64,000 bases of DNA, taken from NCBI RefSeq assembly GCF_014189535.1, contig NZ_CP050304.1, forward strand, positions 1-64,000, written 5' to 3'. Origin of the DNA: Rhizobium lusitanum (GTDB lineage Bacteria; Pseudomonadota; Alphaproteobacteria; Rhizobiales; Rhizobiaceae). The first letter of the stretch is position 1. Every line of letters begins with the position of its first letter. A program made the position numbers and the translations under genes. Below the pieces are notes generated by a model. The model saw only the letters and a list, made by a program, of their open reading frames with translations. It was not told the DNA's origin and did no database searches. This document shows positions 5,292 to 48,712 of the stretch, one piece after another.

Positions 5292-5765
5292 ATGTACACA
5301 TTGAAGCCTGGTATAAAGAAAGACCCTGTTCGGCGTTGGGCTTTGCCTGACCGCATCTTCTTCGGAAATGGCGCGTGTGCCATTCTCGCCGGAGTGTTTT
5401 TGAAGGAGGCACCCCTTCCCGGATTTTATGCCGAGCGTATTATCCCTGGTGAAGGCTTTGCAGGAAACCATATCTTCGTAACTGACGGCGTCGTCGCCTT
5501 TGACTACCACGGCTACACACTGCGGAACCGACTGCTGACCTACCACACAAATGGTTGGGCGAACCGATCTGCAGAGGGATGGAATTGTTGTCTCGAAAGG
5601 GTCGGCTTTGATCTGCTCGACAGGCGCGATCTCAATGACAACAAGATGATTGGGCCAGATCAATATCTTCATGACCCGATAGCCCGTGCCAGGACGTATC
5701 TTCACCGGGTGAACCATGCTGATGCGAGCGCCCGCGCACGCGCCAAATTCGGCTCAGCGATTTAA
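5292..5765 (+). CDS. Hypothetical protein, 157 aa
   Basis: I do not recognise a named domain. The protein starts MYTLKPGIKKDPVRRWALPDRIFFGNGACAILAG and contains the aromatic-rich stretch FDYHGYTLRNRLLTYH. The start at 5292 follows CAGGGGACATCGG, 19 bp after the methyltransferase stop, which argues for translation in the same operon. It has no signal peptide or membrane span, and a basic C-terminus. It looks like a soluble cytoplasmic protein. Confidence 0.6.
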   Translation: MYTLKPGIKKDPVRRWALPDRIFFGNGACAILAGVFLKEAPLPGFYAERIIPGEGFAGNHIFVTDGVVAFDYHGYTLRNRLLTYHTNGWANRSAEGWNCCLERVGFDLLDRRDLNDNKMIGPDQYLHDPIARARTYLHRVNHADASARARAKFGSAI

Positions 5766-6107
5766 GCAACAAAGCTGGATTTTTGGGCCGCGCTACATGG
5801 CGCTGAGTGTTGCGAAATCTGCAAAGCAACAATGCAACAAACCTGGTCAAATGACGGTTGCAACACCTCGTCCGCAACGAACTCCGCTGAGAGCCCTGAC
5901 GATGGGGGAGTTTTATCCACTCACTCACCCAGCTTCATGGCCGAAACCGCACTCTTTGGAACTCAGAGACCACATTAAGGTTCGATCATGAATAACTCAA
6001 TTGGACTACCAAACCCAAGCGCTTCGTATTGAGTTTGCATTAAGATGTAACCCGGATAATCTGCGGACAGACCAAGGATCCGGCCCCACGCTTATTTACA
6101 GCCCGTC
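5766..6107 (+). other. Intergenic region without a recognised gene
   Basis: A gap of about 340 bp between the end of the SDR cluster and the 3' end of the GcvA-like gene. I see only short unconvincing open frames, no strong hairpin and no promoter I would defend. Confidence 0.5.
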
Positions 6108-7072
6108 TTATGTCACAGCGTCGAATTCGCTGGCTTCAAGCTCCATTCGAGAAAGATTATATGACTGTGCTGATCGCTCCGCGAGCAGCCAATCCCGGAA
6201 AATACTGATTTTGGGCTCCTGCACCACACCCAGGGGTGTGACCAAGTAGTAAGCTCCGAAACCGTGAAGAGCATAAGAAGACGGGCATATCAAACGTCCT
6301 CCAGCAATTGCATCATCCACAAGAGGTTCGCTGACAAGTGCTACTCCATCGCCACCTATGGCGGCCTGCACCGCCAGATAAGCGTGATCGAAATAAAGAC
6401 CCTGTGTTGGACAGCCTGATTGAAGTGCGTTCTGAGCAATAAACCACTCAGGCCAACCTGGCTTCGAACCATCGTGGATCAGCGTTTGTTTCTCCAACTT
6501 GAAATCGGCTCTGCTTCTACCATTCAATAATTTTGGACTGCATACCATGAGTCGACGATCGTCGAAGAGTAGTTCAGCGGTTGTGCCCGGCCAATGACCT
6601 GTTCCGTAACGAATGGCCAGGTCGAAATCTTCTTTTTGAAATCTACAAACCGCGGGGCTGTCGATACCTTGACATCGAGCCACTCATGCATCTCCCGAAA
6701 TCGCGGCAGCCTCGGTACCAACCAATTGGTTGCGAAGGAATGCATGGTCGAGAGAGACAGCGTTTCCCTGGCCGTCCCAGTCGTGAGTTGACGGGTTGTC
6801 GCCGAAACGCGATCGAATGCGTTCGTGACGCTGTTGAAATAGGCCGCACCAGCCTCTGTCAGTTTGAGCGGCCGGCTACTACGAACGAACAGCGGTATCT
6901 TCAGCCACTCCTCCAGCAAACGGATTTGGTGGCTGATCGCAGAGGTGGTGACGTTCAATTCTTCCGCGGCATTGCTGAAATTGCGGTATCGAGCAGCTGC
7001 CTCGAAGGCCCTCAGTGCGCTCAAAGATGGAAGAATTCGCTTGTGCGTCGCCTCAACCAATATTGAATCCAA
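6108..7072 (-). pseudogene. GcvA-like LysR regulator with a one-base frame break
   Basis: The N-terminal part has the LysR helix-turn-helix (LSALRAFEAAARYRNFSNAA, TTSAISHQIRLLEE). The C-terminal part (QKEDFDLAIRYGTGHWPG through GVVQEPKISIFRDWL) is the effector domain typical of GcvA-like LysR proteins. The two halves lie in different frames that meet at about 6630. There the minus strand reads TTC then five As then GAAGAT; a sixth A would restore DFKKEDFDLAIRYG and a protein of about 320 residues. The first codon appears to be TTG at 7072. It diverges from the hydrolase at 7252 and is the obvious candidate regulator of that cluster. Confidence 0.8.
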
Positions 7073-7251
7073 TTCAATGTCTCATTGAGCGTTATTACCT
7101 TTTGTATACCGCACTTTTGAACGAAAATGACATCGAATTAATGACAGCACAGGGCCGGCTCAGACCACAAGCACGCGGGTGGATGCAAATAATGAAATAT
7201 CCATCCAAGCGTAACATCACTATTTGACGGAATTACCTCAAAGGCACCCCG

Positions 7252-7965
7252 ATGAAAATTCATGTCTACGGAAAGCCGCAAACCATAGGACCGGAGCTGG
7301 ATGATTACTTCCGGCCCGATCGCAGTGTTGTAATCTCCATTGATATGCACCTTAGCCATCTGGGCGATTCCGATGACTGCCCCTCACCTGCTCCAAGGGC
7401 TGCAGAAATCATAGAGCCCATTAATCAGTTTCATGCGCACGCGCGGGCATTAAACATTCCAATCATCCACGTTCGAACCGTCCTTAGACGAAAGGGTGTC
7501 GATGATGTAAACGGCATCAGCGCTTCGTGGCGTCGGACATGGCCTTTTTATGCTGGCGAAAATCCACACAGCGCCAATCATGCCGTCGAAGGTTCGAAAT
7601 GGGTCGAATTCGTCACGAATGTGGACCCCGATGACCTTATCATCAACACAAAAAAGCGCCTGTCGATCTTCTATCCCACTGATCTGGATTTCCTTTTGCG
7701 GAACTTGCGAAAGGAAATCGTCGTTCTGAATGGCGGCTTCACGGATTGCTGCGTTTTGAACGCCGCATTTGATGCCAGCAACCACAACTATCGCGTCTTA
7801 GTTGCGAAGGATTTGGTGAAGGGTACGAACGACGAACTGGAAGGTGCGGCACTTACAATGATCTCGCTCAATCTCGGTCTCGTTGTCGATTCTTCCGATC
7901 TGCTGGAAAAATGGCACGGCGAAGGTGTTGATAGTTCTGCTAACCTCGAGAAGAGCGGTCTATGA
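7252..7965 (+). CDS. Isochorismatase-like cysteine hydrolase
   Basis: A 237-residue isochorismatase-superfamily protein. The likely catalytic triad is Asp31 (SIDMH), Lys135 (NTKKRLS) and Cys167 (GGFTDCCVLN, the family's C-V position). Members hydrolyse amides or enol ethers, for example N-carbamoyl compounds, nicotinamide, maleamate or isochorismate; the substrate here is unknown. It has an N-terminal extension of about 25 residues before the first strand. The stop overlaps the start of the next gene (ATGA), so translation is coupled. First gene of the putative small-molecule cluster. Confidence 0.88.
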   Translation: MKIHVYGKPQTIGPELDDYFRPDRSVVISIDMHLSHLGDSDDCPSPAPRAAEIIEPINQFHAHARALNIPIIHVRTVLRRKGVDDVNGISASWRRTWPFYAGENPHSANHAVEGSKWVEFVTNVDPDDLIINTKKRLSIFYPTDLDFLLRNLRKEIVVLNGGFTDCCVLNAAFDASNHNYRVLVAKDLVKGTNDELEGAALTMISLNLGLVVDSSDLLEKWHGEGVDSSANLEKSGL

Positions 7966-8627
7966 AAAGCGCAATGACCTTCCCTGTCGAATGTCGCTAC
8001 AACGTCGTCGGCGGGCAGCAGAATCCTGAGCAAGAGTATCGTGGCACTGTCGCGTTTTCACCTGATGGTGAAGCATGGCGGATAAGATGGGAACTGGAGA
8101 CCAGTACCCAGAGACCAAAAATATTCCACGGAACTGGGTTTCCGGTGGGTGACGATTTCTATGCCAGTCGATACGAATTTGCGTCGGTTCCGGATGACGA
8201 CGATTACCCCGGTGTTGTCGTCTACGACGTTCAAAATTTTGGCCGGTTGCCTGCGCAGTGGTATCATCCCACACTAAATGGAAAGAAAGGCGTTGGCCTA
8301 TCAACGGACGGGCCCAGCGACACCCTGCCGGGCATTTACCGTGCGGAGTATCGATCCACATTGGAAGAGTTCGATCCTCTCCTGAAAGAAATTTTCGCGA
8401 GAAACGCACATCTTGAATTCGATTGGCGTAACTCTGAGGGCAGCATCTATATAGGCGTCGGCGAGAGGATTGGTGACCGTCTGGCTGCGGCATGGTCCAA
8501 GCCGAGGCAGAGTTTGGAAATGCTTCGCTACCCTCTTCTTCGTGAAGGGACGGCTGCAACGGCGGGCGCCTGGATGAAGTATGGCGCGCCTGTTCGCGGC
8601 CACGAGAGACTGACGGTGGCAGACTAG
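7962..8627 (+). CDS. Orphan protein coupled to the hydrolase, 221 aa
   Basis: I do not recognise this family. Its ATG overlaps the hydrolase stop. It looks soluble and beta-rich: alternating strands such as YRGTVAFSPDGEAWRIRWEL, DFYASRYEF, YPGVVVYDV and GIYRAEYRS, followed by a helical C-terminus. There is no signal peptide or Cys cluster. The beta pattern suggests a barrel or lipocalin-like fold, but that is only an impression. Tight coupling to the hydrolase suggests a shared step, perhaps substrate binding. Confidence 0.7.
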   Translation: MKSAMTFPVECRYNVVGGQQNPEQEYRGTVAFSPDGEAWRIRWELETSTQRPKIFHGTGFPVGDDFYASRYEFASVPDDDDYPGVVVYDVQNFGRLPAQWYHPTLNGKKGVGLSTDGPSDTLPGIYRAEYRSTLEEFDPLLKEIFARNAHLEFDWRNSEGSIYIGVGERIGDRLAAAWSKPRQSLEMLRYPLLREGTAATAGAWMKYGAPVRGHERLTVAD

Positions 8628-8754
8628 CAGGGTCGTCTCATCGCTCTCCACCTTGACGTGATGTCTTACGCTTGGGTTCGCGCTTAACACTCCTTCATCT
8701 CAGTTTTGCTGGCTCGCAGAAAGCTGAAATCAAGCTTTTGTGGAATACGGGTCT

Positions 8755-9615
8755 ATGAACAAGTGGTACTTCTCCTATCCAATCATGGCGATCATAATTT
8801 GGACTGGGAGCCCAATCGCCGCAAAACTTTCAGTCAATACCGTTGATCCGGTTCATATTGCCTTCCTGCGGTGGCTCATTGCGTTCCTAATACTGACACC
8901 GTTCGTCTTGCCCTCGTTCTTGGCCGAACGGAGAAAAATCTATCCCAACCTCCCGCGCCTGGCCGTGCTGGGACTTCTCGGCATGGTCATCTATCAGTCC
9001 CTGGCGTACTTTGCCGCACCTTTCACCACAGCGACAAATATCGGTCTTTTGAACGCAACTATTCCGATATTTTCGATTATCGTCGAGACGGCAATTTTCC
9101 GGCGGTCGCCTTCACTGAAGGCTATCCTCGGATGCGTGATCGCTTTCTGCGGTGTTATCGTCTTGGTGTCGCGCGGGAACCTTTCCGGTTTGTATGGTCT
9201 TCATATCAATTTCGGCGATTTTCTAATCTTGCTGTCATGTCTTTCCTACGCAACATATAGTGTTCTGATAGGCAAGACCGCTCGCGATATCTCACCTTGG
9301 CACTCTCTGTATGCTCAGATCGGATTTGCAGTTGGCTTCCTGCTCCCCGGCTTCATGATGTCTGATGCGCTTCATCTCAATTTGAAAGGCGCATACATCA
9401 TCCTTTATGTCGGTATACCTGCATCAATTCTGGCGCCATACTTCTGGATGCAGGGGGTCCGTCATCTCGGTTCATCCAGAACGAGCGCGTTCCTCAACGT
9501 TGTCCCGATAACGACCCTTCTGGCTGCAGTCGTCCTTCTTGGAGAGCCCTTGGCAGCGTTTCAGATCATTGGCGGTCTTCTCGCTCTCGCGGGTGTGATC
9601 CTTTCTCAATTGTAA
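8755..9615 (+). CDS. EamA/DMT-superfamily membrane transporter
   Basis: A drug/metabolite-type transporter of about 286 residues, with ten predicted membrane segments arranged as two EamA repeats. The first repeat begins FSYPIMAIIIWTGSPIAAKL, and the second covers SCLSYATYSVLIGK to the C-terminal LLALAGVILSQL. EamA proteins export amino acids, nucleobases or other small metabolites. I chose the ATG at 8755; a GTG at 8740 would add five residues. Its position between tailoring-type enzymes suggests export of the cluster's product. Confidence 0.88.
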   Translation: MNKWYFSYPIMAIIIWTGSPIAAKLSVNTVDPVHIAFLRWLIAFLILTPFVLPSFLAERRKIYPNLPRLAVLGLLGMVIYQSLAYFAAPFTTATNIGLLNATIPIFSIIVETAIFRRSPSLKAILGCVIAFCGVIVLVSRGNLSGLYGLHINFGDFLILLSCLSYATYSVLIGKTARDISPWHSLYAQIGFAVGFLLPGFMMSDALHLNLKGAYIILYVGIPASILAPYFWMQGVRHLGSSRTSAFLNVVPITTLLAAVVLLGEPLAAFQIIGGLLALAGVILSQL

Positions 9616-9824
9616 GAGCGGACGGTACCATCGATTCCGTCTTCACTGTCGGAATGGTTCAAAAGCAGCGATGTGGTTGCTTGTATGAATTTAATTCAAT
9701 TCATTGTTGAAAATTGCTGCCACGACTTCCCGTTTGAAACGGCTATCCTCCTCTCAATTGACTGGCAGGAGGACGAGTTTACTCGGTCCGAGATTGATCT
9801 CTGCAAACGACAGGAGCCGCAGCG

Positions 9825-10718
9825 ATGACTTCACGTGAGCGCCAGTATGCATACGAAAAGGAAAACCAAATCAAAGCCGATTTCGACGACGTATACAACC
9901 GTGCGATGCCGGCAGCCTATTATCGGCGAATGAGAGACGTTTCCTATTCTATTCCAGAGCATGCCGTACCGTTTTTTGTCTCTCTCTTGGATAGGCGTAA
10001 ACACTTGGGTCGCAACCGAGGCCCTTCCCGGGTCCTTGATATCGGCTGCTCATATGGGGTTCTTGCAGCCCTCTTGAAATATCAATTGTCGTTGGATTCT
10101 CTATACAGCCACTACGGCTCATATGACCATCAGTTGCTGTCGCGAGACCAGGCCCTCGATGTCGATCGGCGGTTCTTCCGAAACCAATTGCCACGACGAA
10201 ACGTTCAGATGATCGGACTTGATAAAGCGGCCCAGGCTATTGAATATGCCACGCAGGCAGGTCTTCTGGATCAGGGCATTAGCTGTGACTACGAGGTGGT
10301 GAACGATCCCACGATGATGCCATCGATCGCTCCCGTCGACCTGATCATATCAACGGGTTGCGTGGGATATGTCGGACAAAAGACCTTCTCGAACCTTCTG
10401 TCGTCAGTCGGCGGCCCTCTCCCATGGGTGGCTTGCTTCGTTTTAAGAATGTTCGACTACACCCCGATATCGAAAACCCTGGAGGGATTCGGCTACCGGA
10501 CAACACGTCTCGACGGCGTTAGCGTCAAGCAACGCCGCTTCGCCTCAGACGAGGAGAAGAATAACACGATTCGTCGCGTTCAGGCCTTGGGACAGAACCC
10601 CGCGGGCTGGGAAGACACCGGCTTTTTATACGCCGATCTCTTTGTTTCAATTCCCTCCGCCGAGGTTCTCGATGTTTCAGTGCCTCAGATTGCTGGGCTT
10701 GCTGCATCTGCTGCTTGA
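9825..10718 (+). CDS. SAM-dependent class I methyltransferase
   Basis: A 297-residue methyltransferase with an N-terminal helical region (residues 1-65), motif I VLDIGCSYGVLAALL, the acidic loop QMIGLDKAAQAIEYA, and motif IV-like DLIISTGCVGYV. It is longer than minimal class I enzymes because of the N-terminal extension and a C-terminal tail. It looks like a natural-product or small-molecule methyltransferase rather than an RNA or DNA enzyme, since no NPPY or DPPY motif is present. The next gene begins 24 bp downstream. Confidence 0.85.
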   Translation: MTSRERQYAYEKENQIKADFDDVYNRAMPAAYYRRMRDVSYSIPEHAVPFFVSLLDRRKHLGRNRGPSRVLDIGCSYGVLAALLKYQLSLDSLYSHYGSYDHQLLSRDQALDVDRRFFRNQLPRRNVQMIGLDKAAQAIEYATQAGLLDQGISCDYEVVNDPTMMPSIAPVDLIISTGCVGYVGQKTFSNLLSSVGGPLPWVACFVLRMFDYTPISKTLEGFGYRTTRLDGVSVKQRRFASDEEKNNTIRRVQALGQNPAGWEDTGFLYADLFVSIPSAEVLDVSVPQIAGLAASAA

Positions 10719-10742
10719 TAGCGTCAATTGGGAGACGAGAAG

Positions 10743-11513
10743 ATGCTTGATGATTCATCCGTAATCTTAAAAATGGACCGAGATGAAATAATAGGTTCAC
10801 CCAGTTTCCATCAGATATCGAATCTTGGCGTTGTCCAATTCGAACACAGATATGATGCAGGCTTACTGAACTTCATCCTGCAGCGCGCGCTCAACCTCAA
10901 GGAAGAGTATGCCGAAAAAAAGCAGTTAAATCTGAAATATATTCGAGCAGCGCATCTGCTTATTCCGGAAATCCTTGAACTTGTCCATTTGCCAAGCCGG
11001 CTTGCGCGACTGAGCAGCCTTGCGGGTACGAGGATCGAACCTTACCCTCTGTCTGTCATTTCGACCATTGTCACCTTCTCTGGTCCAGAGAAATCGGATG
11101 GAGCGATAAGATGGCACGCTGATGGTGTGCCGGCAACGGAGCTCGTGCCATTGGCAATGGATCAGCTCGAAGGCGGCGAACTGGAATTGTACAAAGGTCC
11201 TTCGGAAGTCGGACTGGCCATGCAATCTCAAGGTTTGTCGATTCCATCGAGTAACATTGCCAAAGTCTCACATCGTTTAGGATACAGCGTTCTTGGCCAA
11301 CTGATGCGGCTCATGCATCGCGTGAGCCCAATATCCAAAGGCTCGCGGATAACGCTAAACATGAACATTCGTTCTGCAGATCGTCCGTATGTCGATGACA
11401 ACAGCATGTGTTATCTTGCTGCAGATAATCCCGACTTCGCGTGGACAGAAGCCTATATCGCAGATGTGCGTGGAAGACAGTTACCGGCGTACCTCGAACG
11501 TCAGTCACGGTAG
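10743..11513 (+). CDS. 2-oxoglutarate/Fe(II) oxygenase-like protein
   Basis: A 256-residue protein with the facial-triad pattern of 2OG-Fe(II) dioxygenases. His125-x-Asp127 lies in IRWHADGVP, a distal His192 in RLMHRVSP, and Arg202, ten residues later in GSRITLNMN, would bind 2-oxoglutarate. The EGGELELY strand fits the double-stranded beta-helix core. I chose the ATG at 10743, preceded by GGGAGACGAG. The closest family is not identifiable by eye, so the hydroxylation or desaturation substrate is open. It is 6 bp from the next gene. Confidence 0.72.
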   Translation: MLDDSSVILKMDRDEIIGSPSFHQISNLGVVQFEHRYDAGLLNFILQRALNLKEEYAEKKQLNLKYIRAAHLLIPEILELVHLPSRLARLSSLAGTRIEPYPLSVISTIVTFSGPEKSDGAIRWHADGVPATELVPLAMDQLEGGELELYKGPSEVGLAMQSQGLSIPSSNIAKVSHRLGYSVLGQLMRLMHRVSPISKGSRITLNMNIRSADRPYVDDNSMCYLAADNPDFAWTEAYIADVRGRQLPAYLERQSR

Positions 11514-11519
11514 GGACTG

Positions 11520-12272
11520 ATGCTCCAACCCTCCGAAAATGAAACCGACTTTATGTTCTTGCCGACAGTGCCGGCAGACTTTGCAAAGAGCTCGGCACAT
11601 ATCGGCTTCGTTATTCTCGCCACCGACAGGGGCATCGAAAATGAGCTCCGTCACATCGTGCCGGATGGCGTTTCATTCCACACTTCGCGTGCCCCGCCCT
11701 ATTCGGAGGTCAGTTCGTCAGAATCGTTGGCTGACATTCGCCGCGCGGCGTCTTTGATGCTTTCCAAGGAACCACTAGAGGCCATTGCGTATGCCTGTTC
11801 GTCAGGGAGCTTCATTCTGGATGAGAGGTTGCTAATTGGCGCGTTGAATTTCGAGCGGCCTGATGTGCTGGCGGTGACCGTGAAACAAGCCGTCATAGCC
11901 GCGATTGGGAATAATCATGTCAGCAAGATCTCTTTGCTGACGCCCTACGACAGAGGTCTTACCGCTTTGATTATCGCAAGTTTGAGAGCGTCAGGTATCA
12001 CGACCGTGAAAGCTGGATTTCTGGAGCTGAAATCGGATGATGAGATCGCGTCTCTTTCACCACGGCGTATTTTGGAAAGCGCTTTGGCTCTGGACTGTCC
12101 TCAGAGTGAAGCCATCGTCATATTGTGTAATGCACTCCAGACATGGAGCGTCGTTCCTGAAATTGCGCACAAGGTTGGAAAACCAGTCATCGGGGGCACA
12201 CAGTCGTTGGTCGAAATGTGCATCAGGTTTGTGCGGCGTAAAGAGAGCCTGTTGATTTCCACGCGGAGCTGA
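11520..12272 (+). CDS. Asp/Glu racemase-superfamily protein, maleate isomerase-like
   Basis: A 250-residue protein resembling maleate cis-trans isomerase and arylmalonate decarboxylase. The N-terminus is IGFVILATDRGIENEL. Cys93 (AYACSSGSF) and Cys203 (VILCNALQTW) match the paired catalytic cysteines of the family, and SLLTPYDRGLT matches the TPY motif. Both cysteines being present argues for isomerase or racemase activity over the single-Cys decarboxylases. The last eight residues lie within an inverted repeat that resembles an IS21 end, so the native C-terminus may have been altered. Confidence 0.82.
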   Translation: MLQPSENETDFMFLPTVPADFAKSSAHIGFVILATDRGIENELRHIVPDGVSFHTSRAPPYSEVSSSESLADIRRAASLMLSKEPLEAIAYACSSGSFILDERLLIGALNFERPDVLAVTVKQAVIAAIGNNHVSKISLLTPYDRGLTALIIASLRASGITTVKAGFLELKSDDEIASLSPRRILESALALDCPQSEAIVILCNALQTWSVVPEIAHKVGKPVIGGTQSLVEMCIRFVRRKESLLISTRS

Positions 12273-12293
12273 GCCGGGTGGAAATCAACAGGC
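12247..12293. repeat. Perfect 16-bp inverted repeat resembling an IS21-type end
   Basis: The arms at 12247-12262 (GCCTGTTGATTTCCAC) and 12278-12293 are exact inverse complements around a 15-bp loop. The left part and loop, through GAGCCGG, match 49201-49229 with only a few differences. That second site is the terminal region of the IS21 element upstream of istA. This could be a rho-independent terminator, although no T-run follows, or a solo IS end. It overlaps the 3' end of the isomerase gene. Confidence 0.65.
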
Positions 12294-12505
12294 AACACCA
12301 AGAGCGCTTGATGAAGGAAGTTTTTTCCTGATAGGCTTAGGCGCTACATGCGCTGGGCCTTTCACAATGCCGAAACTACAAAATCTTGCAGACGCACTCG
12401 GCTCGGCCGTAGCAGCCACATCAGAAGGGAAGAGTGTCCCCGACGGCGATGTCACCTTAACTTGAACTCGGATGCACGGGAGACGTTCTGCCTTGTGGAT
12501 TGATC

Positions 12506-13210
12506 TCAGGCCATGGCTCCGGCCGCAGTTTTCCACTCTGCGATCGCCTGGATGCGATGAACGCAGATTTGGAATGCGGAGCGTTTTGAGCGGGGTGGGA
12601 CGAAGAGGTTACGGACAGCGGAGAAGACAGAGACGAAGCGCTGAAGGCCTCCCAGTGATCGGAAGCCTTGCATCATCCGCTCCCGTTTTCGTAGCGGCAC
12701 AAGAGAATTCTCAGCCCGGTTGTTCAGACCCTTGTGGGATCGGTGTTCTACGTGCGGCATGACCTGTCGCCGGGCTGCTCCATAGGAGCGCAACTTGTCA
12801 GTGATCATCCGCTTCGGTGCGATACCCTGCTTCTTCAGAAGGCGGGTCAACAATCGCCTGGCAGCCTTGGTGTTGCGGCGGTTCTGGACGATTTCGTCAA
12901 GCACATACCCGTCCTGATCGACGGCCCGCCATAGCCAGTGTTTCCTGCCGGCAATGGTGATGACGACCTCGTCCAGATGCCACACATCGTTCCTGCTGGG
13001 CTTCTTGCGGCAAAGGCGCCGCGCATAATCCGGGCCGAACTTCTTTCCCCAGCGGCGGATCGTTTCGTATGAGACAGCAATGCCGCGCTCCAGCAGCAAT
13101 TCCTCGACAAGGCGCAGGCTCAGCGGAAACCGAAAGTAGAGCCAGACCGCGTGGGCGATGATCTGGGGTGGGAAGCGATGGCGCTTGTAGCTGACCGGCG
13201 AAGTGTTCAT
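12506..13210 (-). CDS. IS6-family transposase, copy B, catalytic triad intact
   Basis: A 234-residue IS6/IS26-family DDE transposase, related to copy A. The first Asp is present at residue 80 (VWHLDEVV), the second in MITDKLRSYG, and the Glu in NNRAENS. I place the start at MNTSPVSYKRHRFP, which matches family N-termini, rather than the upstream alternative. It separates the small-molecule cluster from Kelch and metallo-hydrolase fragments and probably truncated the Kelch gene. Element ends not assigned. Confidence 0.9.
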   Translation of the reverse strand: MNTSPVSYKRHRFPPQIIAHAVWLYFRFPLSLRLVEELLLERGIAVSYETIRRWGKKFGPDYARRLCRKKPSRNDVWHLDEVVITIAGRKHWLWRAVDQDGYVLDEIVQNRRNTKAARRLLTRLLKKQGIAPKRMITDKLRSYGAARRQVMPHVEHRSHKGLNNRAENSLVPLRKRERMMQGFRSLGGLQRFVSVFSAVRNLFVPPRSKRSAFQICVHRIQAIAEWKTAAGAMA

Positions 13211-13255
13211 GAAGGTGCGTCTATCGCAGCCGCTCCTCACAAGGCGTTACCGTGA

Positions 13256-25687: not shown

Positions 25688-25888
25688 CGCAAGACTCCTT
25701 CGAGGTTGTTCTACTCACAAAACGCGCGCGCCGGCGAAAAGATGCATGAGAATCAAGGTCCCGATCGCGGCCCGCAACGCGAGCGGCCTCTTTCTCACTA
25801 AGTCATTGAAAAATGATTCCTTTCGACTTGGAACGATTCGCCAGCTCATTCGGTTAGATCGCAGTGGTTGTTCAGGAGTGTCGGCATC

Positions 25889-26716
25889 ATGGTTGCCCCA
25901 AGAGCGAATTGGAAAGGCTTCATCAAGTTCGGAGAGGTCTCCTGTCCAGTGGCGCTATACACGGCAGCATCCTCTTCCGAGCGGATTGCATTCAACACGC
26001 TCAATCGTAAAACCGGAAACCGGGTCAAACGCGAGTTTCTCGATAGCGAGACCGGCGATCCGGTTGAGCGCGACGACCAGGTCAAAGGCTATGAGGTCGA
26101 GAATGGCCAGTTCATCGTCCTTGAACCCGAGGAAGTCGCGGCAGCCGTCCCCGAGAGTGATAAGACGCTGAAAATCGACGCCTACATCCCCTGCTCGCAG
26201 ATCGACACGACTTATTTCGACAAGCCCTACTATTTGGCGCCGGACAAGGCGGGGACGGAAGCCTTCGTGCTTCTGCGCGACGGCATGAAACAGGAAAAGG
26301 TTGCGGCCATTGCCCGGACCATTTTGTTCCGGCGGATGCGCACCGTCCTCATTCGCCCGCACGGCAAAGGCATGATCGCCAACACGCTCAACTTCGATTA
26401 CGAGGTCCGATCATCCGAGACGGCTTTCGATGACATGCCCGACCTAAAGATCGAAGGCGAAATGCTGGAACTCGCGCAACATATCATCGGCACCAAGAAG
26501 GGCAGCTTTGACGCAAGCACATTTGACGATCGCTATGAAGCTGCCGTGGCCGAGCTGGTGAAAGCCAAGATCGAGGGCCGTCCACTGCCGAAGAAGAAGG
26601 CACCAGTTGCCTCGAAGCCCGCCGACCTTCTGCAGGCTCTGCGCGAAAGCGCCGGCCGGGCAGCGAAAGGGGCCAAACCCAAACACGCCGCAGCGCCCAC
26701 ACGCCGGGCCGGCTGA
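25889..26716 (+). CDS. ku: Ku-type DNA end-binding protein, first copy
   Basis: A 275-residue bacterial Ku homologue. The N-terminus APRANWKGFIKFGEVSCPVA is the family hallmark. Next come the beta-barrel core (FLDSETGDPVERDDQVKGYE, FDKPYYLAPD) and a Lys/Ala/Pro-rich C-terminal tail of variable type. Ku forms a homo- or heterodimeric ring on DNA ends and recruits LigD for non-homologous end joining. I chose the ATG at 25889 with AGGAG 12 bp upstream, over an in-frame TTG seven codons earlier. The second ku starts 15 bp after its stop. Confidence 0.95.
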   Translation: MVAPRANWKGFIKFGEVSCPVALYTAASSSERIAFNTLNRKTGNRVKREFLDSETGDPVERDDQVKGYEVENGQFIVLEPEEVAAAVPESDKTLKIDAYIPCSQIDTTYFDKPYYLAPDKAGTEAFVLLRDGMKQEKVAAIARTILFRRMRTVLIRPHGKGMIANTLNFDYEVRSSETAFDDMPDLKIEGEMLELAQHIIGTKKGSFDASTFDDRYEAAVAELVKAKIEGRPLPKKKAPVASKPADLLQALRESAGRAAKGAKPKHAAAPTRRAG

Positions 26717-26731
26717 TCAGAGGAGGTTGCC

Positions 26732-27541
26732 ATGGCAGTTCGTCCTTACTGGAAAGGCTATCTCAAGCTCTCGCTGGTCACCTGTCCGGTCCAGATGATG
26801 CCGGCGACCTCTGAGAACGAGAAGGTCCGTTTCCATACCCTCAATCGCCAGACCCAAAACCGCGTCGTCAGCCAATATGTGGATTCGGTCACTGGCAAAG
26901 CGGTGAAAGAAAAGGACGAAGTCAAAGGCTATCAGCGTGGTGAGGACGAATACGTCATTCTCGAGGATGACGAACTTGAGAATGTCGCGCTGGACAGCAC
27001 CAAGACGATCGACATCTCCACCTTTACGCCGCGCGACAGCATCGAATGGATCTGGCTCGATACGCCCTACTACCTTTCCCCGAACGATCCGGTCGGCCAG
27101 GAAGCCTTCTCCGTCATCCGTGACGCGATGGAAGCCCAGAACATGGTCGGCATCTCCCGGCTGGTCATCACTCGTCGCGAACGCGCCGTGATGCTGGAGC
27201 CACGCGGCAAGGGCATCGTTCTCTGGACTTTGCGATATGGCGACGAGGTCCGGGATGAAGACACCTATTTCGAGGGTATTGGCGATGAACAGGCGGATTC
27301 CGACATGATACAGCTCATCCAGCAACTGATCAAAAAGCAGACCCGGGACTGGACGCCCAAAATGCTCATCGACCCGGTGCAAGACCGGTTGCTTGACATC
27401 ATTGCCATGAAAAAGAAGGCGCTGAAGAAGCCGTCCAAAAGCAAGGCCAAGGCTCCCGCATCACCGGCGCCCAACAATGTCATCAACATCATGGACGCTT
27501 TGAAGAAGTCGCTGGCCGCAGAAACCCGGTCCCGCAAATAG
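26732..27541 (+). CDS. ku: Ku-type DNA end-binding protein, second copy
   Basis: A 269-residue Ku homologue, divergent from the neighbouring copy but with the same core: MAVRPYWKGYLKLSLVTCPV, QYVDSVTGKAVKEKDEVKGY, LDTPYYLSPNDPVGQEAF. The C-terminal tail is Lys-rich (KKKALKKPSKSKAKAPAS), as in DNA-contacting Ku extensions. Tandem ku genes are known in rhizobia, where the products may heterodimerise. Preceded by AGAGGAGG. It converges with the HARP-like gene. Confidence 0.95.
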   Translation: MAVRPYWKGYLKLSLVTCPVQMMPATSENEKVRFHTLNRQTQNRVVSQYVDSVTGKAVKEKDEVKGYQRGEDEYVILEDDELENVALDSTKTIDISTFTPRDSIEWIWLDTPYYLSPNDPVGQEAFSVIRDAMEAQNMVGISRLVITRRERAVMLEPRGKGIVLWTLRYGDEVRDEDTYFEGIGDEQADSDMIQLIQQLIKKQTRDWTPKMLIDPVQDRLLDIIAMKKKALKKPSKSKAKAPASPAPNNVINIMDALKKSLAAETRSRK

Positions 27542-27721
27542 GCGGAAACCAAACCACGGCTTCAGGACGACCATGTTGCGAAATCTCAGCCACGCCAGCG
27601 CCGTGATCCGGCTCGGCCCAATCTTCCGTCGATCGGATGGCCGCACCGTATCGAGCTATGTCCGGTGCTCCTGAAAACAACTGGACCCACAGGACCTATC
27701 TCCAGCAATGCGTGGCACGAT

Positions 27722-28618
27722 CTAAGCGATATCGGCCTCGTTTTCTTCCTTGCGCTGTTGGGCGCGTCGTTTTGATCTGGCCTTTTGCCGCGCGGTACGC
27801 AATTCCTCCAGGGTCGGTAGCCACCAGCCTCGTGCCAATTCTTCCTCTCCAGGAGGCGTTCGTGCCGGCCAGGTCGTCACCAACTCCTCGAGCGAACCGG
27901 CTCGCCACGACGCCCAGACATGTTCCTCATCTTGGCCTGCAGGAAAATAGAACGCGCCGACGGTCCCGGGATCGGCCAACTCGCCGTTTGTACCGGTGAA
28001 GAAAACGACGCCCGAATGCGTGCCGATCGCACGCTCGAACAAAGGAATATTATCAACAGGCACCGGATATCGTTTCAGCCGGCGCTCCCGCAGTTTCGCC
28101 TTCGATACCTCCTCTTCATCCGTGCCCTTTATTGCCTCACGGCGCGCTTTCCTCACCACGGGTTCATTGCGCTCGGCTGCCGCCGCGATCGCCGGCCATC
28201 GTCGGCGCAGTTCATTGTATGATCGGTACGGCACCGTCCACAGCCGATGATCGGGATCCCATCGCGCAAACGGGATTTCTCGGATTTCGGTCACGACATT
28301 GCGCGAATAGGGCGTCCGGATTTGAAAGGCCAAAGGTGCTGCTTCGAGATAGCGGCTGTCGATCGGATCGAATGCGAAGGCGTCCTTCCCCTTTTCGTCG
28401 GCAAAGGCGTCGGCCTGCGCTTCCATTTCGGCGAGCCAGCGTCCGATGCGCCTCTCGGCTGTCCGGCCGGGCACGAACCAGGCCTTCAAACTGTCGCTCC
28501 AGCGTGCACGGGGGAAAGACTCCCGAAAACGCTGCACGGTGATGCGATCGTGAGGCAGGTCGGTCGTTGCGCCAACACGCGCTTCAGTTGGAGAGGTGTC
28601 GTTCGGTTCCTTTTCCAT
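27722..28618 (-). CDS. HARP-repeat protein in the end-joining locus
   Basis: A 298-residue protein with two segments resembling the HARP domain of eukaryotic annealing helicases (SMARCAL1): residues about 26-52 (ITVQRFRESFPRARW then AWFVPG) and, more clearly, about 98-145 (VVTEIREIPFARWDPDHRLW then TVPYRSYNEL). The family pattern is a helix, then A/S-R-x-[WY]-D-x3-[KR]-x-W-x-[FV]-P, then Y-x-x-L. No helicase domain is present. The C-terminal third has unassigned strands and a basic tail rich in Arg/Lys. It begins 55 bp after the ligD stop on the same strand, opposite the ku pair. I infer a DNA-binding or annealing accessory role in end joining. Confidence 0.68.
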   Translation of the reverse strand: MEKEPNDTSPTEARVGATTDLPHDRITVQRFRESFPRARWSDSLKAWFVPGRTAERRIGRWLAEMEAQADAFADEKGKDAFAFDPIDSRYLEAAPLAFQIRTPYSRNVVTEIREIPFARWDPDHRLWTVPYRSYNELRRRWPAIAAAAERNEPVVRKARREAIKGTDEEEVSKAKLRERRLKRYPVPVDNIPLFERAIGTHSGVVFFTGTNGELADPGTVGAFYFPAGQDEEHVWASWRAGSLEELVTTWPARTPPGEEELARGWWLPTLEELRTARQKARSKRRAQQRKEENEADIA

Positions 28619-28673
28619 GGTCCGATAACGCGGCAATGCAGTCAATGTTCTTCTGCTCGTCGCGCTCAACCGA

Positions 28674-31322
28674 TCAAACAGCCCGCTTTGACTTTCCGAG
28701 ACGTTTGATGGCCTGTTCAAGCGACCGCTGGCTATCGCAGTAATCCTGCCATGCCGAGCTTTTCGCAAGAAGCGCAGGGACGGTGCGAACCGTAAATCTC
28801 TTCGGATCGAGACCGGCTTTGACTTGCGTCCATGTCAACGGCATCGACACGGTGGCGCCGGGCCGCGCCCGCGGAGACAACGGAGCGACCGCCGTCGCCA
28901 TACGAGCGTTGCGCAAATAGTCGAGGAAGATTCGGCCCTGACGCTGGCTCTTGGCCATCTTGATCAGATAGAGGTCCGGATTGTCGCGGGCCATTTGCTC
29001 GCAGACATCGTGGGCAAAGCCCTTCGCGATATCCCAGTCGAGTTTTTTGCCCTTCGGCACGGCAAGAGGCGTCACCACATGCAGCCCCTTGCCTCCCGTC
29101 GTCTTGCAGAAGCTCACCAGGCCCAGCTCTTCCAGCCGGTCTCGGATCTCACGGGCGGCCTCGATAACCGTCGAGAATTCGACATAGGGTCCAGGATCGA
29201 GGTCGAACACCAGACGGCCCGGCACTTCCGGCTGACCAGGCTCACAGTTCCATGGATGCAGCTCGACGCCACCGATCTGGACGATGGCGGCCAGACCTTC
29301 GATGCGGTCAATCTGCAGATAGGGCTTCTTGTCGCCGAAGACCGTGACCAGTTCCAGGAGGCTCGATGTCCCCGGCATGGCATGGCGCTGGAAGAACTGT
29401 TCTCCCGCGATTCCATCGGGAGTTCGTATGATCGAACAAGGGCGTCCCTTGATGTGTTCAATCAACCAGGAACCTACGGCCTCGTGATAGCGCGCCAGAT
29501 CAACCTTGGTCACCGGCTCCCCATCGCCGGCATCCGGCCACAGCGGCTTGTCGGGACTGGTGATCATCACGCCCATCACCTCCGCCTTTCCGCCCTTGCG
29601 GAAACGCTTTGTCCCCGGTTGATCCGTCTCTGGATCCGGCACATCGTCTTTCGACGGTGACGCCGGCTTGTCTGCCTCGACCTCGGCGGCGGGCTTGTCT
29701 TCCCGCAAACCTTTGAATGCGGCTTGGCGAACCTGGCCATCGGCCGTCCAGCCGGCAAACTCGATCTCGGCGACGAGCTCGGGCTTGAGCCAGACGATCT
29801 CAGAGCTCTTCTTCGGCGCCCCTATTCCCGTGAACGGGGACTTGGACGTCTCCATGTCCTGAAGCTTTGGGAGCAGCGTCTCGACGGTCTTGGCGCCGTA
29901 GCCCGTGCCGACGCGCCCGACATAGACAAAGTGATCGCCGCGATTGACGCCCACGAGCAAGGATCGGAACTTTCCGTTGGCTTTTGCATAGGCGCCAATG
30001 ACGACCTCATGCCCTGCCCTGCATTTCGATTTCGCCCAGGTCTCCGTGCGGCCGGATTGATAGGGCGCGTCGCTTTGCTTGGAGACAATCCCTTCCAACG
30101 ATAAACGACAGGCAGACCTGAGAACAGCGTCACCACCGGTTTCAAAATGCTCGACGAAGCGTAGATGCGGATCTTCGCCCGCATCCGACAAAAGTGTCGT
30201 CAGCCTGTCCTTTCGTTCTTTAAGCGGGAGTTCGCGTAGATCCTCCTCGCCGACGAACAGGAGGTCGAAGGCAAAGTACACCAGATCGTCTGTCTTTCCT
30301 TCTGACAGCGCCGCCTGCAGCGCCGCAAAATCCGGGGCCCCGCTTTCGTCGAGGGCGCAAACCTCACCATCGATGATGACATCGGGAAGAGCGGAGGCTG
30401 ACTTGGCGATCGCCAGGAATTTGGCTGTCCAATCCAGACCCTTGCGAGTTTTCAGTATGACTTCGCCATTCTCGACCCGCATCTGAATACGATAACCGTC
30501 AAACTTGATCTCGTGGATCCAACCGTCGGCATTGGGCGGGCGCGCTAAAGTTTCGCAGAGCTGCGGCGGAATGAAATCCGGCGTAGCGGATTTCGGCTGC
30601 TTGACGGCCGCGGGCTTTTTCTTGTTCTCCCCTCCCGCTTTGCGTTTCTCGGCGGCGACACCCTCATTGCTGTTCCACACCGCATCTGCCTCAACGTCGC
30701 CATTCTGCAGCATGAATGGCTTCGGCTTCTTGCCTTTTCCGGAGGCGATCGCCGCCATCGTCCTGCCGGACGCCACCGACGTATCGTTTTCGTCGAGGAC
30801 GGACGCTCCGTTCTCCTCGACCGAAAAGTCGTCGCGATGCTTGATCAGCAGCCAATTGGTTCGCTTACCGCCATCCCGGTCGTGACGCATACGCACGAGC
30901 ACGAAGCTGCCGCGTAGCCGCTGGCCCTCCAGCGTGAATTTGAAATCGCCCTTGGCGAGAGCCTCTTCCGGCGTCCTCTTGCCTTCCGGCTCCCAATAGC
31001 CGCGATCCCACAACATCACCGTGCCGCCGCCGTATTGGCCTTTCGGGATCGTACCTTCGAAATCCCCGTAGTCCAGCGGGTGATCTTCCACCTCCACCGC
31101 CAGCCGCTTGTCGTGCGGATCGAGAGAAGGCCCCTTGGTCACCGCCCAGGACTTGAAGACGCCGTCGAGCTCAAGCCTGAGGTCATAGTGCAGGCGGGTG
31201 GCGTCATGCTTCTGAATGACAAACCGCCGGCGGTTCGATGGCTTGACCTCAGCCTCGCCGCTCGGTTCGCCCGTTTTCTTGAAATCGCGTTTGGCACGAT
31301 AGTTCGAAAGATTGCCGGCCAT
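28674..31322 (-). CDS. ligD: ATP-dependent DNA ligase D (multidomain NHEJ enzyme)
   Basis: An 882-residue LigD. The 3'-phosphoesterase domain is at residues about 30-165 ([20 protein letters not shown] and [13 protein letters not shown]). The ATP-dependent ligase domain has nucleotidyl lysine K273 in EIKFDGYR, followed by the OB fold. The primase-like polymerase domain covers about residues 580-880, with FDLDPGP containing the catalytic Asp pair. This PE-LIG-POL order is the rhizobial one. Start: ATG of [14 protein letters not shown]. With the ku genes it provides non-homologous end joining, likely during stress or stationary phase. Confidence 0.96.
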
Positions 31323-31806
31323 GAAGTCCCGATCCTTCCAATCTGACAAGGAACGGAGTCAGCCTTCTGCCGGCTCTGCTTCGTCCGCCATTGGCTATCT
31401 CCTGCAATCAGGATCTAACGCCTTTGGCGGCCAGTAGTTTCCCAGCGTGGATGATCTGGTCGATCGAAACCGGTGATATCGTCATAAGGACTGCTATGTT
31501 CCCTATTTGTTTCGGGTGAGCCCTCAAAATGGGATGCCGAGTCCGCAGCTTTTTTTGCTGAAGCCGAATGCCTTTCGCAAGCTACGATCCACGGCAGCTG
31601 CTGGCATAAACCTGCGCAAACGACTTAGAAGTGTCGCTTGCCCGCTGACCGGCTGACGCAGTCCGTATGGGCTTTCGATCACTGCTCGAATTTTTTCCGC
31701 TACTACCTGCGGAGATGACACTGATTTGATCCTGCACCGAAAAACCACGCACTGCGGACTCCTTTGGCATTGGCATGATCTCAATTCGCCAGTGCGAGGG
31801 TTGGTG
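31323..31806. other. Intergenic region upstream of ligD
   Basis: About 480 bp with no convincing gene. A minus-strand GAAAC-N16-CGTT pair (31424-31448) is one base from the EcfG consensus and might drive ligD, about 100 bp upstream of its start. I consider it suggestive only. Confidence 0.35.
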
Positions 31807-42333: not shown

Positions 42334-43940
42334 GGGGGTGCGGATAAAAAGTTGGACTGCTTCATATGCTAATGCCGAGGCTCTTACGATACTCGACGGG
42401 GCTTAGCGATCCCAGCGATATCTTGATGCGCTTTTCATTGTACCAGCGGATGTAATCATCTACCTCAGCGACGAACTGTTCGATTGTGATGGTCTTCCAA
42501 TCTCGTGGATAAAATAGTTCCGTTTTCAATCGGCCGAAGAAGCCTTCGCATGCGGCGTTATCTTGTGAGCAGCCCTTTCGGGACATCGAGCGAACCAGTT
42601 TCGCTTCGCTGATCCGCGTTAGCCAGCCTGGCCAGCGATAATGGGCTCCGCGATCGGAATGGACGATTGGCCGTTCCTCGCCGTCGGTCACGGTCTCAAT
42701 AGCTGCATCCAGCATAGTATTGACCAGCCCCGCGTCTGGTTGCGTTCCAATCGACCAACTGATGACCATTCCGTCGAAGCAATCGATGATGGGCGAGAGA
42801 TACACCTTCCCGGCTGGGATCTGGAACTCGGTGATGTCTGTCAGCCATTTCTCGTTCGGCGCTTTCGCATGGAAGTCGCGATTGATCAGGTTCTCGGGTG
42901 CCGGACTTATTTCTCCCAAGTATGATCCGAAACGCCGTCGGCGCGGTCTGGCCACGACCAGGTGCTCCTGCTTCATCAAGCGCTGGACAACCTTTTCCGA
43001 GATGATCACGCTCTTCCTGGCCAGTGACGCCTGTAGTCTGCGGTAGCCGTAACAACGACGGTTCGCTTCAAAGATTTCCGCAAGGCTGTGCCGGACGGCG
43101 GCATACTTGTCTGCCAGACACATGCGCGTGCGATGATAAAAGTAGGAGCTTCGCGCAATTTGCAGCTGTGCGAGCAGTTCTGGCAAGCGATAGGTATCTT
43201 TAAGGGCGTCAACCAGCTGTGTCTTTTCCCGATTACTCAGGATCTGCAGATCGACGCCCAGTTCTTTTTTTAGGAGTTCATTGGCCTTCTTCAGGAGGTC
43301 ATGCTCGAGTTGCAACTGGCGAACATCACGTTGGAGGGCTTCAAGCTGTCGCTCGAGTTCCTCGCGTTCCGGCGCCTGCGGGGTGGTTTTGCGGCGTTTC
43401 ATGGATGAAGGAGCCTCATGACCGAGTAGCTGGTCTTTCCAGTTGTACAACGTCGGCCTACAGACGCCCAGCCGGTCAGCCACCTGTTGGGCGCTTTCAT
43501 TTCCACTACATAGTCCGATGACACCAGCTTGCTTCACCGCTGCGGGATAGGCAGGGCGCCACGATCGACCGACCATCGATGTTCGTGTCTCCGGAAAGGC
43601 CTCCCGTACCCATGCGGTCAGAGTTCCTCGACCAGGATAGCCGAGCGCCCTCATCGTCGCAGAGATGCAACGATCATGGGTGCGGTAATGCTCAAGTGCC
43701 GCCTGCTTCTGACTCTCGGAATACTTTGGCGCTCGAGCTACCGGCTGAATACGCAGGTCGAGATGCTGTACGTACTCGCGGTACCAACCCCTCAGCGCAT
43801 TCTTTGTGGGGTAACCCAACTGGCGAATGGTCCCGTTAAGTCGCTTGCCAAGCCTGATATAAAGCTCAACGGCTCGAAGTCTGTCTGCGTAGGAATACAT
43901 GAACTACCTCCTGGTGGTCCAAGTTTTCGTCCGCACCCCC
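42334..43940 (-). mobile_element. 1,607-bp IS3-family element, copy 1
   Basis: The termini are GGGGGTGCGGATAAAAAG at 42334 and the inverse of GGGGGTGCGGACGAAAAC at 43940. Length and encoded protein are identical to copy 2 (49242-50848), in the opposite orientation. The flanks ATT and AGT do not form a target duplication here. Confidence 0.92.
42362..43900 (-). CDS. IS3-family transposase, single 512-aa frame (copy 1)
   Basis: A single-frame IS3 transposase of 512 residues: two N-terminal helix-turn-helix segments (RLGKRLNGTIRQLGYPTKNA; NESAQQVADRLGVCRPTLYN), a coiled coil (EELERQLEALQRDVRQLQLE), HTH_21 (NRRCYGYRRLQASL), and a DDE core with KWLTDITEF (D), VHSDRGAHY (D) and EGFFGRLKTELFY (E). 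Fusion of the usual OrfA and OrfB into one frame is seen in some IS3 subgroups. The protein is identical to copy 2. Confidence 0.94.
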   Translation of the reverse strand: MYSYADRLRAVELYIRLGKRLNGTIRQLGYPTKNALRGWYREYVQHLDLRIQPVARAPKYSESQKQAALEHYRTHDRCISATMRALGYPGRGTLTAWVREAFPETRTSMVGRSWRPAYPAAVKQAGVIGLCSGNESAQQVADRLGVCRPTLYNWKDQLLGHEAPSSMKRRKTTPQAPEREELERQLEALQRDVRQLQLEHDLLKKANELLKKELGVDLQILSNREKTQLVDALKDTYRLPELLAQLQIARSSYFYHRTRMCLADKYAAVRHSLAEIFEANRRCYGYRRLQASLARKSVIISEKVVQRLMKQEHLVVARPRRRRFGSYLGEISPAPENLINRDFHAKAPNEKWLTDITEFQIPAGKVYLSPIIDCFDGMVISWSIGTQPDAGLVNTMLDAAIETVTDGEERPIVHSDRGAHYRWPGWLTRISEAKLVRSMSRKGCSQDNAACEGFFGRLKTELFYPRDWKTITIEQFVAEVDDYIRWYNEKRIKISLGSLSPVEYRKSLGISI

Positions 43941-43949
43941 AGTGGCGCA

Positions 43950-44120
43950 AATCGAGCTGAAACTCAACACACAACAGACGGAGGTCGCCATCGGCTGCGC
44001 CGTCCTCAACCGAATGCTGGCATGCGCACGCCCGAAGTCCGTCCGGCGCAACGCAGCCACCGCATAAACAGCGGTATCAAAGAATGAAGTCCGAAAACTC
44101 TCGGATCCCTGCACCAACGC
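43950..44120 (+). pseudogene. 3' remnant of an IS903-type element with its right inverted repeat
   Basis: The plus strand encodes QQTEVAIGCAVLNRMLACAR then PKSVRRNAATA and stops. This matches the last 30 residues of the transposase at 18716-19705. It is followed at 44103-44120 by GGATCCCTGCACCAACGC, the same right terminal repeat as that element. The rest was lost at the 1,607-bp IS3 copy. Confidence 0.85.
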
Positions 44121-44243
44121 TGCTCGAGACTGGATATGGAGAGCGTTGCCGAACGTATCGGCTTCTCCTCGGCGCGCCAGTTCCGACGCGCGTGGAGCCG
44201 TCTGCACGACACGCCGCCGGGCCGCGCTCGAACGGACCTGTAA
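44121..44243 (+). pseudogene. C-terminal fragment of an AraC-family regulator
   Basis: Directly after the IS903-type end the plus strand reads RLDMESVAERIGFSSARQFR then RAWSRLHDTPPGRART and a stop. This is the second helix-turn-helix of AraC/XylS proteins (S-V-x-x-V-A-x-x-x-G-F-S-S-x-R-x-F-x-R-x-F). The upstream part of the gene is gone, replaced by IS DNA. Confidence 0.75.
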
Positions 44244-44323
44244 ATGCCTTGGAGGACAGCCTCAGGCTCAATATCTCCTGTCGTGTAAATGTTTTGAAGG
44301 GTTGGTAGTAGCTGAGTGCCGTT

Positions 44324-44941: not shown

Positions 44942-45031
44942 CGCTTCAATATCGTTCTGTGGAACGATTTGGACAAGAGTGAGTTGTAACGATATAAATA
45001 TATATTACCCGTTACATGAATCGGAAACCAC

Positions 45032-45976: not shown

Positions 45977-46029
45977 ACGCGATTCCGAGTCGGAGAGGAG
46001 AGTTGTACTATGGAATCCGGCTGGCGACA

Positions 46030-46056
46030 CCCGATCAGGACGACGTCCTGATCGGG
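46030..46056. repeat. Perfect 12-bp palindromic repeat after the transporter
   Basis: CCCGATCAGGAC and GTCCTGATCGGG are exact inverse complements around GAC. No T-run follows, so this could be a factor-dependent terminator, a transcript-stabilising hairpin or an operator. It lies about 55 bp after the EamA stop. Confidence 0.6.
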
Positions 46057-46172
46057 CACTAACTGGCGATCTGTTTGGTCCCGACGGTCACCCTTTCGTC
46101 GCTCAACACCGAAGAGAACGGGCAAGAACCACAGCTCGATCTGGGGCTTTGATGTAGCCGGGCCAAAAAACG

Positions 46173-46329: not shown

Positions 46330-46461
46330 AACACCAGAATATCCATTCCATCCGCACATTAAATAGACTTTGTTGCAGTGCAGCCATGCCAGAAGCGCAT
46401 GGCCTCCATCTGAGGGCAAAAATCTCCAGCACAGCACCTCGCGTCGGCCCAGACACAGAAA

Positions 46462-46482: not shown

Positions 46483-46514
46483 TATAGTCATTCGGGTTGG
46501 CTTGGAACAGTCGC

Positions 46515-48710: not shown

Positions 48711-48712
48711 GC

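Follow-up and report, generated by a model that had tools for sequence, protein, structure and literature searches.

The stretch of DNA analysed here (the window, 64,000 nucleotides) comprises positions 1-64000 of contig C1 of Rhizobium lusitanum, a plasmid-sized contig of 332,028 bases in a genome of 6.94 Mb and five contigs. At 7252-12272 it contains six open reading frames on the + strand, encoding a putative cysteine hydrolase (ISO), an orphan protein (ORP), a putative transporter (EAM), a methyltransferase-like protein (MT), an oxygenase-like protein (OX) and a racemase- or isomerase-like protein (RAC); a gene for a GcvA-type LysR regulator diverges from them (Table 1). A rearranged copy of most of these genes is present on a plasmid of Roseibium, which indicates that they form a real unit, seemingly one that has not been described before.

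An earlier note on this DNA had described the six genes as a tightly spaced small-molecule locus without a known counterpart. The spacing is as it reported: ISO and ORP overlap by the four bases ATGA, MT and OX are separated by 24 nt (with OX counted from ATG 10743) and OX and RAC by 6 nt. The gaps between ORP and EAM (127 nt, with EAM counted from ATG 8755) and between EAM and MT (209 nt) are larger. A search of 7073-7251 for T-N11-A boxes with a good dyad found none. A narrow literature search, confined to open-licence PMC papers, likewise found no pathway with this gene set.

Table 1. Coordinates of the cluster genes and of the features beside them
Feature	Position	Strand	Remarks
LysR regulator, GcvA-type	6108..7072	-	split over two frames: 6524-7072 and 6108-6683
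LysR-ISO intergenic region, presumed control region	7073..7251		
ISO, isochorismatase-fold cysteine hydrolase, D31/K134/C167	7252..7965	+	PF00857 E 1.9e-26
ORP, orphan protein, weakly LIC10280-like	7962..8627	+	weak NCBIfam match; Roseibium homologue
EAM, EamA/DMT family transporter, presumed exporter	8755..9615 (alternative start GTG 8740)	+	EamA E 1.1e-43
MT, class I SAM methyltransferase-like	9825..10718	+	weak Pfam models; relatives at 35-44%
OX, Fe(II)/2-oxoglutarate oxygenase-like, H130-x-D132...H197...R207	10743..11513	+	residues and profile; start ATG 10743 or TTG 10728
RAC, EutA / maleate isomerase / arylmalonate decarboxylase-like, C93 and C203	11520..12272	+	native C-terminus missing
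Remnant of two facing IS ends	12247..12293		20-nt inverted repeat, 7-nt centre; supplies end of RAC
IS6-family transposase, right border	12506..13240	-	NF033587 E 3.8e-66

Conservation of the oxygenase and its neighbours

On plasmid NZ_CP045634 of the marine bacterium Roseibium aggregatum (L003), MT, OX and RAC homologues occur in the order seen in the window, with identities to the window proteins of 38.7, 56.8 and 31.9%, respectively. On the opposite strand an EamA gene is followed by an ORP homologue (35-37%), and a GcvA gene diverges from the EamA gene; no isochorismatase gene is present nearby. Whether the genes are conserved together elsewhere had been set beforehand as a refuting test of the locus, which withstands it: this plasmid keeps most of the set. 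Directly upstream of the Roseibium MT-OX-RAC genes are argininosuccinate synthase and Lrp/AsnC genes (L003:7072-8882), which may point to a substrate resembling arginine or citrulline.

In Pelagibius (L002), MT and OX are followed by an MFS transporter gene and a second methyltransferase gene, and no LysR match was seen at this locus. On two Streptomyces plasmids (L004 and L005), an OX gene (35% identity) has a methyltransferase gene on one side and a gene for another HxD protein on the other; a gene of the LysE family lies alongside. Two more genera of Alphaproteobacteria (g73, five genomes, and g141, three genomes) have OX flanked by a divergent LysR gene and by an EamA gene, at eight loci in all, around each of which no MT, RAC, ORP or ISO match was found within 12-20 kb. 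The EamA Pfam model was confirmed in all nine genes scanned (Roseibium and the eight loci), and that of LysR in 8/8 scanned, Roseibium included; the LysR gene of L023 was identified by tblastn only. In the two loci scanned for it, the gene beyond LysR is not the same: it encodes a UvrD-type helicase in one g73 locus (L019) and an acyl-CoA dehydrogenase in one g141 locus (L077).

A small-molecule transporter gene is predicted at all 13 OX loci, the window included and the distant OX-like genes of L024, L025, L033-L037 and L039 left out: EamA at 10, MFS at one and LysE, as annotated, at two. LysR and EamA genes are both present at 10 of the 13. Since OX is flanked by LysR and EamA genes in two further genera, LysR, OX and EamA form the core. 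MT, RAC and ORP are an add-on common to the window and Roseibium, and MT alone is also found in Pelagibius. The earlier proposal of a six-gene locus thus holds as a small-molecule set, but its conserved core comprises only LysR, OX and EamA.

OX is rare (family and class counts include the window's own genome). It was detected in 1/100 same-genus genomes, this one being its own genome, in 8/394 family genomes at E 1e-6 (two of them distant), in 5/385 class genomes at E 1e-10 (three distant), in three of the 12 genomes in the family of G421 and in three plasmid records. ORP was found in 1/199 family genomes, 3/385 class genomes and one plasmid record. Its relative in class genome G556 has 26.6% identity (tblastn), with no OX, MT, RAC, ISO or EAM match within 14 kb around it; a weaker ORP match in G394 gave no tblastn match. 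Scans of viral contigs revealed no relative of ORP or OX. The MT family is present in 16 of 190 class genomes.

Features of the predicted proteins

OX retains an HxD...H iron triad and a downstream arginine (H130, D132, H197 and R207, numbered from TTG 10728), as had been read from the sequence in the earlier note; R207 falls where members of this superfamily are expected to have the arginine that binds 2-oxoglutarate. With G34, S96, G149, G150 and G205, these are the only residues invariant in all 14 aligned OX and OX-like proteins. In the Pfam search, the window OX matched 2OG-FeII_Oxy_3 at no better than E 0.14. A profile of the 14 aligned proteins finds lysine hydroxylase 7jsd (and 9oet) with E 4.1e-4, the next match being at 0.11; the alignment to 7jsd spans most of the domain. 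The literature names 7JSD a lysine hydroxylase, describes a BesD-family lysine hydroxylase and gives the iron ligands of BesD as H140 and H207 (PMC13244439). The distance between H130 and H197 of OX, 67 residues, is equal to that between these two BesD ligands. In BesD-type halogenases, Gly or Ala replaces the iron-binding Asp. A halogenase identity for OX was ruled out, as D132 is kept, and this makes hydroxylation likelier than halogenation.

HalD (PF23169, cut-off 26 bits) is the commonest Pfam match among the 14 proteins, seven of which match at E up to 1; the OX homologues of L038 and Pelagibius score 13.2 and 14.4 bits, below the cut-off. The window OX has no HalD match at E up to 1 and is not placed in the HalD family by sequence. 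PF10014 is matched by two of the 14 proteins and, at E up to 1, not by the window OX. Three distant OX-like genes, two of them above the HalD cut-off, occur in one stretch of L039 (7209-13363), where the neighbours, judged by eye, are an FAD oxidoreductase, a trimethylamine methyltransferase, a creatinase-type peptidase and a LysE exporter. An amidinotransferase gene, read by eye beside the distant OX-like gene of L024, was dropped, having no Pfam support at E 0.001.

The catalytic residues of ISO are D31, C167 and K134. The earlier note had correctly recognized a cysteine hydrolase with D31 and C167, but had placed the lysine at K135; it is K134 that aligns with the lysine of the relatives. 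Plasmids of Pantoea and Klebsiella encode relatives of ISO with 49-50% identity, in each case immediately after a gene for a DMT transporter. In both plasmid loci (L026 and L027, 3300-7690), DMT, nitrilase, DMT and isochorismatase genes form a group of near-equal layout. ORP has no Pfam match, and its only NCBIfam match is to LIC10280 (E 2.4e-5, 24.6 bits against a cut-off of 100). The assignment of EAM to the EamA family, made previously by eye, is borne out by the Pfam match, and the start then noted, ATG 8755, is possible; the match to TIGR00950 (E 4.4e-23) is below the cut-off.

The Pfam methyltransferase models are all below their cut-offs for MT (best E 0.0023). In the MT tree, the three OX-linked MTs lie on one side with Rhizobium and Mesorhizobium plasmid relatives (support 81/92), and relatives on a Rhizobium and a Mesorhizobium plasmid lie near formyltetrahydrofolate deformylase (purU) genes. 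The MT relatives on plasmids of Rhizobium binae (L008:1-8855) and Mesorhizobium (L010:6424-10252) are found near ATP-grasp, CapA and peptidase genes, or near another 2OG-oxygenase gene (DIOX_N), as well as near purU; these surroundings are possibly other small-molecule sets.

RAC matches Amdase (E 1.3e-9), EutA (E 1.3e-33, 116.5 bits against a cut-off of 318) and maleate isomerase 2xed (E 7.6e-7). Two cysteines are a constant of the racemases and isomerases in this superfamily, and both cysteines reported for RAC, C93 and C203, are kept in the window and in Roseibium. The identities EutA, biuret hydrolase and RutB were ruled out on scores (116.5, 47.6 and 30.9 bits against cut-offs of 318, 370 and 378, respectively).

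Probable acquisition of the cluster and apparent damage within it

The region had appeared to the eye to be richer in A/T than its neighbours, and calculation agrees: the GC content is 51.4% in 6000-12400 vs 56.8% in the whole window, and the GC content at third codon positions (GC3) is 0.50-0.60 across the six genes vs 0.71, 0.73 and 0.75 in three neighbours. A DNA search of plasmids gave short matches only. The left flank, 5293-5771, matches Sinorhizobium meliloti plasmids (85.8% over 479 bases, the best among the matches listed). It is followed by a short repeated element at 5906-5976, pieces of which, of about 45-60 bp, are found on rhizobial plasmids. Within 5772-6500, 40 plasmid records were matched; all 25 among the matches listed fall in 5906-5976. 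As none of those listed extends beyond 5976, the left boundary of the island probably falls within 5976-6108.

At the right edge, RAC runs into a 47-bp element containing two facing copies of a 13-mer, which has 10 exact copies in the genome vs 0 for the reversed control. This element and the IS6-family transposase gene beyond it correspond to the IS-end-like repeat and the IS6 element that had been noted as borders. Seven of the eight other 13-mer copies were inspected (five regions). Three of the seven flank a gene for a 512-aa transposase, at both ends of one insertion sequence (IS) copy on contig C3 and at one on C4, and four do not. The 512-aa transposase has HTH_21, rve and rve_2 domains, and we take it to be of IS3 type. 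Two more copies of its gene are present in the window (42362-43900 and 49282-50820), where the IS copies lie in opposite orientation and share 99.9% identity over 1611 bp.

The shift in GC and GC3, the rarity within the genus and the IS elements on the right side indicate that the cluster is likely to be a horizontally acquired cassette on a plasmid-sized contig, as had been suspected.

The LysR gene, which does diverge from the six genes as previously described, looks damaged. Its first piece matches HTH_1 (E 1.4e-22) and the GcvA model (E 4.7e-50), and its second matches LysR_substrate (E 4.5e-19); identities of the two pieces to the Roseibium GcvA are 41 and 37%. The frame changes near 6632-6641, in an A/T run: the GcvA match stops at about 6632, and LysR_substrate starts at about 6638. 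This may be either a real change or an assembly error. In addition, RAC relatives in Roseibium, P. phymatum and S. meliloti all end in a GRL(L/W) tail, and in the window the tail consists of residues encoded by the IS-end remnant, which replace the conserved C-terminus. Genes formerly downstream of RAC may have been lost.

Other features of the window include a second IS6-type transposase gene (DDE_Tnp_IS240) at its left end, 139-840, the DNA of which aligns with that of the 12506-13240 copy along just 94 bp (86%). The approximately 5 kb between the two copies of the 512-aa IS (42362-50820) contains a CGNR/ABATE regulator gene and another EamA transporter gene, in a composite-transposon-like arrangement. 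A pair of neighbouring Ku genes, together with a LigD gene, makes up an end-joining repair set at 25868-31349 on this plasmid-sized contig.

Proposed function and comparison with known systems

With middling confidence, we lean towards the reading that the cluster is a LysR-controlled, acquired cassette that makes and exports a modified amino-acid-like small molecule. The GcvA-type regulator, which is placed in that family by sequence and is split here, would sense a metabolite and switch on the divergent genes. OX has the residue signature of an Fe(II)/2-oxoglutarate oxygenase; as a putative distant BesD-type relative it may hydroxylate a free amino acid, or a compound much like one, with the help of Fe(II), 2-oxoglutarate and O2. 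MT would methylate the compound, RAC could racemize or isomerize it via its two cysteines, and ISO, a predicted hydrolase of amide or similar bonds, may serve to trim an amide or to recycle a by-product. For these three enzymes the families are recognizable, and the reactions, their order and even participation in one pathway are proposed from them. EAM, a member of a transporter family, would export the product and so spare the cell from poisoning. The amino-acid-like product of the earlier note, methylated, oxidized and exported, is thus plausible from the families, with the reactions, the direction of transport and the role of the product being our suggestions.

Several observations weigh against this reading. 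Taken by itself, the window OX stays below all Pfam and NCBIfam cut-offs, that of HalD is passed only by two distant L039 proteins (26.9 and 42.2 bits), and the AlphaFold prediction of OX, for which a double-stranded beta-helix would be expected, has a mean pLDDT of only 39. With an 11-row OX profile lacking the distant relatives, 7jsd is unlisted at E up to 5; as it is found with the 14-row profile, that match rests partly on those relatives. EamA and LysR genes are common. The five g73 loci represent one event; by descent, the 13 OX loci amount to about six contexts, and only about four of these are independent contexts with LysR and EamA. The methyltransferase encoded beside the Streptomyces OX is not demonstrably of the same family as MT. 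The relatives of MT sit in mixed, unrelated gene contexts, and the OX-linked MTs form one group in 24% of bootstrap trees, which is not a demonstrated clade; on these grounds MT was ruled out as the centre of the cluster. ISO was found beside none of the 12 other OX genes (12-21 kb around each), and a six-step pathway is therefore not demonstrated. The gaps of 127 and 209 nt leave a single transcript uncertain. Finally, damage to both the regulator and the isomerase is probable in this strain, and the locus may consequently not work fully in it.

These genes could instead form a catabolic or detoxifying operon, in which ISO (amidase-like) and RAC degrade a nitrogen compound, OX and MT carry out the first steps, and EAM is an importer or a pump for a toxic intermediate. 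The superfamilies of ISO and RAC serve the breakdown of nicotinate, pyrimidines and ectoine, LysR control is common in catabolism, and in S. meliloti RAC relatives adjoin L-2-amino-thiazoline-4-carboxylate hydrolase. However, the scores for RutB, biuret hydrolase and EutA fall short of the equivalog cut-offs, and no other enzyme of a nicotinate-, uracil- or ectoine-type pathway is present among the six genes (no search for them was made elsewhere in the genome); a match to a nicotinate or uracil breakdown operon (NicF, RutB), which the earlier note had named as a refuting outcome, was thus not seen among these genes. Moreover, the genes most consistently kept with OX encode transporters and LysR regulators and not a catabolic enzyme, and the isolation of ISO from other OX genes also counts against this explanation, which we regard as rather improbable. 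A resistance or self-protection cassette, in which OX and MT modify an amino-acid antimetabolite of a competitor or plant and EAM expels it, would account for the LysR-OX-EamA unit of the eight loci equally well, as that unit seems suited to sensing, modifying and expelling a toxic amino acid. RAC, MT and ORP, however, would exceed the needs of detoxification, and the Pfam and NCBIfam matches include no drug-modification model (no resistance library was searched); we think this unlikely. It is very improbable that IS activity left these genes together by chance and that they no longer work as a unit. The IS6 element and IS-end remnant at the right border, the split LysR gene and the RAC without its native C-terminus would fit such a history, but the six + strand reading frames are all open, ISO, OX and RAC have kept those catalytic residues that were checked, and chance grouping is rejected because of the Roseibium locus, where the MT-OX-RAC order is kept together with ORP, EamA and GcvA.

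A more far-reaching form of the biosynthetic reading can be offered only tentatively, and we would not expect all of it to hold. The cluster would then represent a new mobile amino-acid natural-product pathway, with OX founding a new branch of free-amino-acid oxygenases that is transporter-paired at 13/13 loci in Alphaproteobacteria and Streptomyces. The Roseibium/Rhizobium version would add C-, N- or O-methylation and EutA-like racemization, leading to a secreted methyl hydroxy amino acid, perhaps D-configured or beta-substituted, that acts as a signal or antimetabolite. If true, this would be a compact route to a secreted amino acid derivative in soil and sea bacteria, and a new oxygenase branch for C-H hydroxylation of free amino acids. 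The pairing of OX with a transporter gene would also flag such cassettes in other genomes, in which cluster finders mostly seek peptide or polyketide synthases.

Partial likeness to several known systems can be seen. RAC resembles EutA, maleate isomerase and arylmalonate decarboxylase in its two cysteines and in its EutA and 2xed matches, but is far below the EutA cut-off and has lost its C-terminal tail, and the six genes include no ectoine, nicotinate or malonate gene. The Pantoea and Klebsiella plasmid group shares an ISO relative behind a DMT gene, with another DMT transporter, 38% identical to EAM, encoded nearby; it differs in having no OX, MT, RAC or ORP within 14.7 kb of each. With BesD/HalD and 7jsd, OX shares the 14-row profile match, the 67-residue histidine spacing and the HxD motif as in the hydroxylase branch. 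It differs in scoring below every cut-off, and its carboxylate ligand means that halogenation is not expected.

The IDO and Hil operons encode free-amino-acid hydroxylases, with a LysR gene in Hil and an RhtA exporter in some; the IDO operon occurs in Bacillus thuringiensis and Hil operons in Pantoea, Pseudomonas and others, and the product is proposed there to be an antimetabolite or signal (PMC3684760). The window set resembles them in its LysR regulator (split here), its 2OG oxygenase-type gene and its RhtA/DMT-type transporter. It differs in that its six genes include no PF10014 oxygenase, HilC short-chain reductase or HilP binding protein, and OX passes the cut-off of neither PF13640 nor PF10014; in their place the set has genes for a methyltransferase-like protein, an isomerase with two cysteines, an orphan protein and a cysteine hydrolase. 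On the proposed reading, the cluster would be a cassette of a free-amino-acid oxygenase and a transporter, as known before, but with different tailoring enzymes.

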